Shown piece after piece: positions 15,079-52,899 of a stretch of 64,000 nt of DNA (position 1 is its first letter; every line of letters starts with the position of its first letter). Under the pieces are notes generated by a model, which worked only from the letters and a program-made list of their open reading frames with translations, made no database searches and was not told the origin of the DNA. Location: positions 62,001 through 126,000 of the forward strand of contig NZ_FMUJ01000004.1 in the NCBI RefSeq assembly GCF_900100965.1, in the 5' to 3' direction. Both the position numbers and the translations under genes were made by a program. The DNA is from Variovorax sp. EL159. Its GTDB lineage: Bacteria; Pseudomonadota; Gammaproteobacteria; Burkholderiales; Burkholderiaceae_C.

Positions 15079-15172
15079 GCTCTCCCCCAGGCTTCGCGCA
15101 CTTCGTGTCGCTTCTCCAACCCCCTTCCGGGGGCAACACCTGAGGCCCGGCAAAGCCGGTTCCTCGGTGTTC
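15079..15172 (+). repeat. intergenic repeat family B, copy 1
   Basis: A 94-bp element begins directly at the stop codon of the cyclase gene with GCTCTCCCCCAGGCTTCGCG. A second copy is at 42748-42842. The last part (15135-15171) folds into a 37-nt hairpin: AACACC pairs with GGTGTT, GAGG with CCTC and CCGGC with GCCGG. In the other copy the same positions differ by paired changes that keep the stem. It may act as a transcript 3'-end structure, since both copies follow a stop codon, although there is no T-tract. Confidence 0.75.
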
Positions 15173-35425: not shown

Positions 35426-35497
35426 TGCCTGTAGCGCTTTTTTTCAGATTTCGCTGGTGGTCTGAGCACGAGGGCTCGGGGTTTTGATGCGGGGTCA

Positions 35498-35759
35498 TTC
35501 GGGGTGCGTGCACAGGACACCGGGTACTCCCCTCCGCGAATGTCCCCCGGCCTGCGGCCTCCTCCTTTATTTCGCTGCGGGGAGCACCCAGTGCCCTGTG
35601 CACAGTGGGCGCGGCTGTCGTGCCGGCCGATCAACCTGCGCTCTGAACAACGCTCACGCTGGCGGGGTGCCTTGCGCAGCGAAATAAAGGAGGAGGGGCG
35701 AAGCCCCGGGGGACATTCGCGGAGCAAGGCACCCCGTCGGCGTGAGCGCCGCCCCGAAC
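35498..35759 (+). repeat. compound repeat family C, locus 1 (two inverted subunits)
   Basis: The 472-bp gap between boxC and boxR is mostly this 262-bp element. Subunit 1 has arms at 35508-35532 and 35579-35603; subunit 2 has arms at 35652-35675 and 35724-35747. Between each pair of arms is a conserved core that contains CGCGAATGTCCCCC and CTCCTTTATTTCGCTGCG (reversed in subunit 2). Both element ends carry a CCCCGAA terminal motif pointing outward. A second locus is at 52646-52899. The element lies downstream of boxR and would be on its minus-strand transcript. Confidence 0.85.
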
Positions 35760-35791
35760 AGCAGCACCTCAACGACAAACAGAGCAGACAG

Positions 35792-36742
35792 TCAGGCGCC
35801 CAACCCCATCGACTGGCGGGCCACCGCACGCAAGGCCTGGAAGCTCTGCGCCAGCGTCTTGCCGCTGGTGTCCACCGACAGATCGGCCTTTGAATAGAAG
35901 GCTGCACGGCCATTCAGGATGCGACGCAGGTCTTCCATCGCTTCCTTGCTGGCCGCCATCGGACGCGTGTCGCCCTGCGCGGCGACGCGGCCCATGTGCT
36001 CTTCGGGCGCGGCCTGCAGCCACACGGTGGTGCAGTGCGCAAGCAGTTCGTTGAAGGTGGCCGGGTCGGAGACGATGCCGCCCGGCGTGGCGATCACCAC
36101 CTCGCTGTAGATCTGCACGGCCTCTTCAAGCGCGCGGCGCTCGTAGCGGCGGTAGGCGTTGGTGCCGTACAGGTCGTGAATCTCGCGAACGCTGCAGCCG
36201 GCGAGTTTTTCGATCTCGCGGCTCAGCTCGATGAAGGGAATCTCCAGGTCTTCGGCCAGCATCTGCCCCAGCGTCGACTTGCCCGCGCCGCGCAACCCCA
36301 CGAGCGCGATGCGGCGGTGCCGCGCCGGATCGACAGAGGCCGTGCCCAACAGTTCGCCGAGCGCCACGCGCACGCGGCGCAGGTCGGTTTCGCTGCGGTT
36401 CTCGAGCAGCTCGCGGATCAGCAGCCACTCGGGCGAACTGGTCGTCACGTCGCCCACCAGCTCGGCCAGCGAGCAATGCAGCGCGCCGGCCACCTGCTGC
36501 AGCACCAGGATCGAGGCATTGCCGATGCCGTATTCGAGGTTGGCCAGGTGGCGCTCCGACACGTCGGCCGCAATGGCCACCGCCTTGCGCGTGAGGCCGC
36601 GCTGCGCGCGCAGGTTGCGCACGCGATCGCCCAGCGCCGCGAGCAGCGGGTTCCTGGCCTCCCCGGCCGGTGCGGTGGCGCCGGCGTTGCCGCCATTGCC
36701 GTCTTCTGGCGCGGTGGCCAGCACCGCTACATGCTCATTCAT
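35792..36742 (-). CDS. boxR: BoxR, XRE-type regulator fused to a shikimate-kinase-like domain
   Basis: A 316-residue regulator: an XRE helix-turn-helix (residues about 36-92, LTRKAVAIAADVSERHLANL), a linker, and a shikimate-kinase-like domain with Walker A GLRGAGKST (residues 149-157). This fusion is specific to BzdR/BoxR, repressors that respond to benzoyl-CoA. It is placed between the two box transcription units and should control both. The N-terminal 30 residues are Ala/Gly-rich and disordered. Confidence 0.95.
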   Translation of the reverse strand: MNEHVAVLATAPEDGNGGNAGATAPAGEARNPLLAALGDRVRNLRAQRGLTRKAVAIAADVSERHLANLEYGIGNASILVLQQVAGALHCSLAELVGDVTTSSPEWLLIRELLENRSETDLRRVRVALGELLGTASVDPARHRRIALVGLRGAGKSTLGQMLAEDLEIPFIELSREIEKLAGCSVREIHDLYGTNAYRRYERRALEEAVQIYSEVVIATPGGIVSDPATFNELLAHCTTVWLQAAPEEHMGRVAAQGDTRPMAASKEAMEDLRRILNGRAAFYSKADLSVDTSGKTLAQSFQALRAVARQSMGLGA

Positions 36743-52645: not shown

Positions 52646-52899
52646 GTTCAGGGTGTGCTCACGCCGATGGTGTGCTCTGCTCCGCGAATGTCCCCCGGGG
52701 CTGCGCCCCTCCTCCTTTATTTCGCTGCGCAGAACACACCATCGACGTGATCGATGGACGTGGCCGTTGATCGGCCCGCACAACCGCAGCGCTCATGTGC
52801 GAATGGCATCGGGTGCTCCCCGCAGCGAAATAAAGGAGGAGCGAAGCGGGGGACATTCGCGGAGGGGAGTACCCGGTGTCATTCGCACGCACCCCGAAC
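52646..52899 (+). repeat. compound repeat family C, locus 2 (two inverted subunits)
   Basis: The 330-bp gap before feruloyl-CoA synthase consists mainly of this 254-bp element. Subunit 3 has arms at 52660-52680 and 52729-52749; subunit 4 has arms at 52797-52821 and 52864-52888. The cores match those of locus 1, and the right boundary GCACGCACCCCGAA matches the left boundary of locus 1 read in reverse. Short unrelated-looking reading frames across it are products of the repeat, not genes. Confidence 0.85.

Follow-up and report, generated by a model that had tools for sequence, protein, structure and literature searches.

Two Inverted Hairpins Downstream of boxR

The stretch of DNA analyzed here, termed the window, comprises 64,000 nucleotides of the genome of Variovorax sp. 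EL159. Its minus strand carries a putative boxR gene (35792-36742, from the list of open reading frames), which was named in a first-pass annotation and has relatives in Variovorax and Acidovorax, the nearest named ones being from Variovorax. Between boxR and boxC lies an inserted segment of the minus strand (copy 1; 35453-35791), which extends from immediately past the boxR stop codon to the position where the sequence of empty sites picks up; we infer its ends from an alignment against nine empty boxR-boxC intergenic regions. The segment contains two hairpins, the inverted subunits A and B, and the strand that carries the 15-nt core GCGAAATAAAGGAGG is referred to as the “core strand”. Subunit A is a hairpin of 97 nt (35508-35604; 104.7 bits with the covariance model R1; fold of -67 kcal/mol) with the minus strand as its core strand and a core-pattern match at 35561-35575. 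Subunit B is a hairpin of 99 nt (35650-35748; R1, 104.3 bits; -72.5 kcal/mol) with the plus strand as its core strand and a core-pattern match at 35679-35693. A spacer of 45 nt (35605-35649) separates the two, as read from the sequence and from a core-to-core distance that is nearly constant throughout the genome. Subunit B is oriented towards the 3' end of boxR, 43 nt from the stop codon.

From the outside in, each copy 1 hairpin comprises an outer stem of 25 bp, a 3x3 internal loop and a 5-bp stem GCGAA/TTCGC, followed by an asymmetric loop in which ATAAAGGAGGA faces GGGGGACA and, innermost, a short hairpin. The first-pass annotation had described two inverted subunits with complementary arms of 24-25 bp, which correspond to A and B. 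Its account of the inner hairpins (GGCC-GCA-GGCC and GGGGC-GAA-GCCCC) and of a purine-rich internal loop also holds, and the reported breaks in the arms, three in the first subunit and two in the second, are seen in the fold of the opposite strand and become G-U pairs on the core strand.

A second copy occupies the intercistronic segment 52612-52941 on the plus strand, from a stop codon to the next start codon. Here, subunit B (52656-52754, minus strand; R1, 93.3 bits) starts 44 nt past the stop codon of the upstream gene, and subunit A (52796-52888, plus strand; R1, 99.2 bits) follows after a gap of 41 nt, compared to 45 nt in copy 1. A scan of the window with the core pattern (up to 3 mismatches) yielded 5 matches, where 0.56 are expected; four belong to copies 1 and 2, and the fifth has 3 mismatches and is unpaired. 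In a scan against Rfam 15, no family reached its gathering score on the element (best, 27.3 bits; 90 needed), and the single accepted match in the window is a tRNA located away from the element.

Copy Number and Arrangement in the Genome

The element is dispersed throughout the 7.0-Mb genome of strain EL159. The core pattern has 88 matches with at most 2 mismatches, 74 of them exact, compared to 5 for a reversed control pattern. Five of the matched loci (L078, L081-L084) were dropped as chance core matches inside coding sequence, leaving 83 true subunits. Most of these (64 of 83) form 32 close inverted pairs, and the remaining 19 are single. All close pairs run minus then plus, with a core-to-core distance of 114-118 nt, and no other close arrangement occurs in this genome. 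By crude frame scoring, the 32 pairs are all situated between called genes. Another genome, G067, contains 35 inverted pairs among the matches listed. Inspection by eye reveals two recurrent arm types, A and B, and every pair consists of one A and one B, while some single subunits retain the arm or a remnant of the partner only.

A Selected Fold with Changeable Stems

The fold of the subunits is under selection. Each of eight sequences (two copies, two subunits, two strands) folds below all of its own 200 shuffles, with z values of -9.0 and -10.4 for the core strands of copy 1. Among 77 distinct subunits of the EL159 genome, 96.1% of the cells are paired, both sides change in 26 of 36 pairs, and the covariation is reached by none of 500 shuffles and by no slid version. 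This set was found by the core alone, and therefore is free of a bias towards well-paired copies. Such a bias does affect 44 copies from other genomes, which were selected as model matches of exactly 97 nt; in their ungapped alignment, 99.1% of the cells are paired, and the covariation again exceeds all 500 shuffles and the slid controls. Both sets bear out the earlier proposal of a selected fold with freely varying stems. The motif AAGG.GGA, 5' of the inner hairpin, is invariant in the 77 and the 44 copies. Since the stems are changeable and the core is small and constant, the recognized part can be read from sequence alone.

Non-standard pairs are distributed unequally between the strands. 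When the 77 subunits are read on their core strands, their 31 outer pairs include 198 G-U, 22 A-C and 17 other non-standard cells. Equal frequencies of A-C and G-U, which the first-pass annotation had named as speaking against a selected fold, are thus not observed. The preference holds for both subunits: the G-U to A-C ratio in paired copies is 76:5 for A and 88:11 for B in strain EL159, and 74:1 for A and 104:2 for B in G067 (34 of 35 B subunits counted). It amounts to 186:2 in other genomes (82 of 150 model-aligned rows, namely those containing the core) and to 96:0 in the 44 model-picked copies. Recent private changes favour G-U weakly (14 versus 4, one-sided p 0.015, the cells themselves being non-independent; 10 G-U versus 4 A-C in the paired copies of strain EL159 and G067). 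Two features run against the pattern: an A-C at one pair in 9 of 77 EL159 copies (7 A, 2 B) and one G-G mismatch in 34 of 35 A copies of G067.

Folded as RNA, the core strand gains 9.3-12.4 kcal/mol over the opposite strand, and with DNA parameters its advantage is 6.5-8.0 kcal/mol; single-stranded DNA, too, would prefer G-T over A-C. As the core strands of A and B are on opposite strands, the G-U pairs in both cannot arise from one RNA. The simpler reading is that strand-specific recognition of single-stranded DNA accounts for the excess in both subunits. The structured RNA proposed in the first-pass annotation thus stands with regard to the selected fold and the changeable stems. A single RNA of the boxR transcript finds no support: the G-U excess is seen in both subunits on opposite strands, and the repeat is dispersed and missing between the same genes in related genomes.

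Empty and Filled Sites

The boxR-boxC region was compared among the best 80 of 313 boxR relatives, taken from named genomes, of which 78 gave a readable region. Six contain the core (L219, L226, L234, L222 in rearranged form, L221 and L240 in part), and L223 has a copy whose core is masked. The filled sites were compared by alignment with nine empty ones. For copy 2, the flank was matched in 63 of 81 genus genomes and 30 loci were retrieved: the core is present in 10 (including strain EL159), 2 retain only remnants without it, 16 are bare junctions, and the last 2 hold another repeat. The bare junctions consist of a stop codon, 1-2 nt and a start codon (TGACATG, TGAAATG, TAGAAATG; some of those printed include the first codons of the next gene), and at this locus they are the empty sites. 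Both remnants (L397, L406) lack the two cores, and by eye the outer arms of B and A are joined to each other in L397.

Other GC-rich dispersed repeats were encountered at the same places elsewhere, in five boxR-boxC regions (L217, L232, L233, L236, L247) and at two copy 2 sites (L414, L416); one of these repeats is also matched twice in the window, at 15092 and 42762. Since such repeats occupy the same sites in other genomes, the two junctions may be insertion hot spots.

Many copies in strain EL159 show GTTCRGGGCG and CGCCCYGAAC outside the hairpins (by eye), and these motifs are not evident in the copies printed from other genera. A left-end motif is found past a stop codon in 15 of 67 copies, compared to 0 of 3350 shuffles, which is insufficient to define the true end. 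TGANATG occurs in 17 right flanks of the 67 copies (shuffling predicts 0.5, and the reverse strand gives 3), and a stop codon followed by ATG within two purines in 25 left flanks (3.3 by shuffling, 5 for the reverse strand). These flanks look as if stop/start junctions had been split. No exact target-site duplication was found, and in part of the copies stop/start remnants flank both sides.

Distribution among Related Genomes

A search with the covariance model R1 produced matches across the genus, family and order. It detects the element in 65 of 81 genus genomes, with 0 to at least 51 subunits per genome. In the family, 137 of 299 genomes have a match, spread over 76 of 141 genera, and in the order 14 of 300 genomes do, which include three other families and bring the total to four. 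In these other families the architecture is the same and the arms are unrelated; in more distant genomes the inner five pairs vary as well, e.g., GCGGC/GCCGC in place of GCGAA/TTCGC (by eye). Distant copies retain the core AAAGGAGG...GGGGACA and mostly also the inverted pair, and the distant genome G617 has same-strand neighbours among the subunits listed.

Gene Context and Orientation

The element shows a strong orientation bias at gene ends, which is newly found here. In strain EL159, 20 of the 32 pairs lie between tandem genes, 9 between convergent and 1 between divergent genes, while 2 are unclear; gene neighbours were assigned by a crude gene caller and some may be misplaced. At 18 of these 20 tandem sites, B points towards the upstream gene's 3' end (two-sided p 0.0004). 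Of the 35 pairs of G067, 23 have B towards the upstream gene and A away from it, 3 have the reverse arrangement, 7 are convergent and 2 divergent; thus, at tandem sites B faces the upstream 3' end in 23 of 26 cases. When B is faced by a gene end within 300 nt in this genome, the stop codon is at a median distance of 45 nt, and at 36-59 nt in 20 of 29 cases. Orientation in G067 has no clear relation to the chromosome half (10 to 6 and 9 to 10), the halves having been set without a located origin. A bias related to transcription is unexpected for a plain REPIN and could hint at a role in mRNA.

Search for a Mobilizing Enzyme

The EL159 genome has a single Y1-type match, which is a RAYT-like gene. 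Such a gene occurs in 78 of 81 genus genomes, with one match each in 76, and a RAYT relative in 283 of 299 family genomes. RAYT was rejected as the mobilizer, since R1 has no match around 69 RAYT genes of the genus (70 loci, approximately 1-1.5 kb on each side where the contig allows), which represent 69 of the 78 genus genomes that have a Y1 match. Nor is there an association in the family sample, where the element is found in 131 of 283 genomes with a RAYT relative versus 6 of 16 without one (some of the 16 being incomplete). In the genus, one RAYT clade tends to go along with high copy number, and in each of the 16 genus genomes that lack an element match, the Y1 match has an E value of 1.8e-11 or weaker. 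This trend may reflect shared descent, since high-copy exceptions exist, which harbour either a divergent RAYT (G053, G065, G006) or no Y1 match (G018, G035). A second repeat family, considered as the RAYT's own REP, is absent at the 69 RAYT loci and absent too at 30 background loci; hence, this test has little power.

Three widely spaced pairs in strain EL159 were considered as autonomous parents and dismissed, as they look like a cargo element inserted into the spacer. The cargo element in these copies (L325, L326, L327) has a shared leader and differing cargo, which includes defence genes. L326 encodes the Gabija proteins GajA and GajB (PADLOC E values 6e-227 and 1e-255; L326:1157-6680, at about 22.5-28.0 kb of C8 in the EL159 genome). 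L327 encodes a thymidylate synthase, an alpha-glutamyl/putrescinyl thymine pyrophosphorylase-like protein and an HTH/ImmA-IrrE protein, and L325 an ImmA/IrrE-like protein. An 89-aa ORF of the cargo element has no Pfam match; it is present in 3 of 299 family genomes, yet 11 times in G045. In the latter genome, relatives of the cargo element occur without the hairpin repeat (L334, L336, L337, L339) or with it (L331; loci of about 3.2 kb). No parent insertion sequence with the same ends was found among the loci examined.

Mobile Repeat or RNA Element

The element is probably a non-autonomous mobile repeat of approximately 330 bp, which works like a REPIN and the hairpins of which are read by strand. 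It consists of two hairpins, A and B, inverted around a short spacer. Each would be read on its own core strand, on which a conserved internal loop (ATAAAGGAGGAG opposite GGGGGACA) and a small inner hairpin sit atop a changeable outer stem. Copying would proceed via a single-stranded DNA intermediate, and an enzyme supplied in trans might recognize each hairpin by strand and insert the unit beside stop codons. Several findings weigh against this reading: the search around the RAYT genes examined yielded no mobilizing gene, no clean target duplication emerged, the orientation is biased with respect to transcription, recent changes favour G-U weakly, some copies carry A-C, G-G or other mismatches, and G617 has same-strand neighbours.

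A fold that acts in RNA, as an intercistronic or 3'-end mRNA element (stabilizer, processing site or terminator), is a credible though rather unlikely alternative. The transcript of the upstream gene would then contain A in the orientation of its core strand and B in reverse, and the orientation would be set by selection acting on inserted copies. The orientation of the element to the upstream gene end agrees with this explanation, as does the scarcity of divergent sites (1 of 32 in strain EL159, 2 of 35 in G067). The better folding of the core strand as RNA agrees with it too, although the core strand is also favoured as DNA. On the other hand, B likewise has a G-U excess on its own core strand, which at most tandem sites is not transcribed with the upstream gene. 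Moreover, a terminator scan found no terminator-like site in the copy 1 hairpins; the one detected (plus strand, 35461-35480) lies in the flank of the segment and is antisense to the upstream gene.

Two further explanations were weighed against a strand-read mobile repeat. An ordinary MITE, i.e., an internally deleted insertion sequence that is mobilized by a DDE transposase and has GTTCRGGGCG...CGCCCYGAAC as its terminal inverted repeats, would fit the short inverted ends seen by eye outside both hairpins of many EL159 copies and the presence/absence polymorphism. We regard it as improbable: the logic of terminal inverted repeats requires neither 25-bp covarying stems nor a G-U strand bias, no such ends are apparent in the copies printed from other genera, no parent element is present among the loci examined, and the three wide pairs resemble unrelated cargo inserted into the spacer. 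Hairpin-templated DNA correction occurs in quasi-palindromes, and it might maintain the complementarity of the arms without selection for the fold. It should yield perfect pairs rather than standing G-U on one strand (198 G-U versus 22 A-C), and the near-constancy of the unpaired core across families would be left unexplained, which renders correction very improbable.

Going beyond a mobile repeat that works like a REPIN, the element might represent a new class of mobile element, which inserts in one orientation at stop/start junctions, carries paired strand-specific hairpins and is moved by an enzyme other than RAYT or any known transposase. We hold this to be unlikely; if true, both neighbouring genes would stay intact upon insertion. 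The REPIN work consulted does not explain a strong orientation bias beside stop codons, and the question arises whether a mobile enzyme senses gene ends, or whether selection retains copies that act as 3'-end elements.

Comparison with Known Systems

No description of the repeat was found in a search of largely open-access literature (REPIN/RAYT, Variovorax, Comamonadaceae, core sequence), and neither the genera nor GGAG turned up in word searches of PMC3733652 and PMC6006769. According to PMC3116915, PMC2817692 and PMC8266576, REPs and REPINs are palindromic intergenic units, which form inverted pairs at fixed spacing, reach a high and patchy copy number and undergo complementary stem changes, and their singlets are broken doublets. 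The element resembles REPINs and BIMEs, which are mobilized by RAYT (TnpA-REP): it is also a many-copy intergenic palindrome in inverted doublets at fixed spacing, patchy in abundance, with complementary stem changes and singlets. In PMC8266576, TnpA-REP binds the REP hairpin and not the inverse strand, and a REP unit has a length of 20-50 nt. Against this range, the unit of the element is about 97 nt long with nested stems. The element further lacks a GTAG or GTGG head (GGAG could be a variant head), no copy is near the RAYT genes examined, its presence is independent of RAYT in the family sample, and unlike REPINs it is strongly biased in orientation to the upstream gene. Since it departs from REPINs in unit length, head sequence and RAYT linkage, we describe it as REPIN-like and do not file it as a REPIN.

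Prokaryotic MITEs are short, non-coding, non-autonomous and located at polymorphic sites. The element shares all of these features, yet each of its halves is a conserved hairpin, and neither a parent insertion sequence nor a clean target duplication was found. With the ends of IS200/IS605 elements, it would have in common a hairpin that is read on one strand of single-stranded DNA and thereby favours G-T over A-C; it differs from them in that the core strand is the plus strand for one hairpin and the minus strand for the other.
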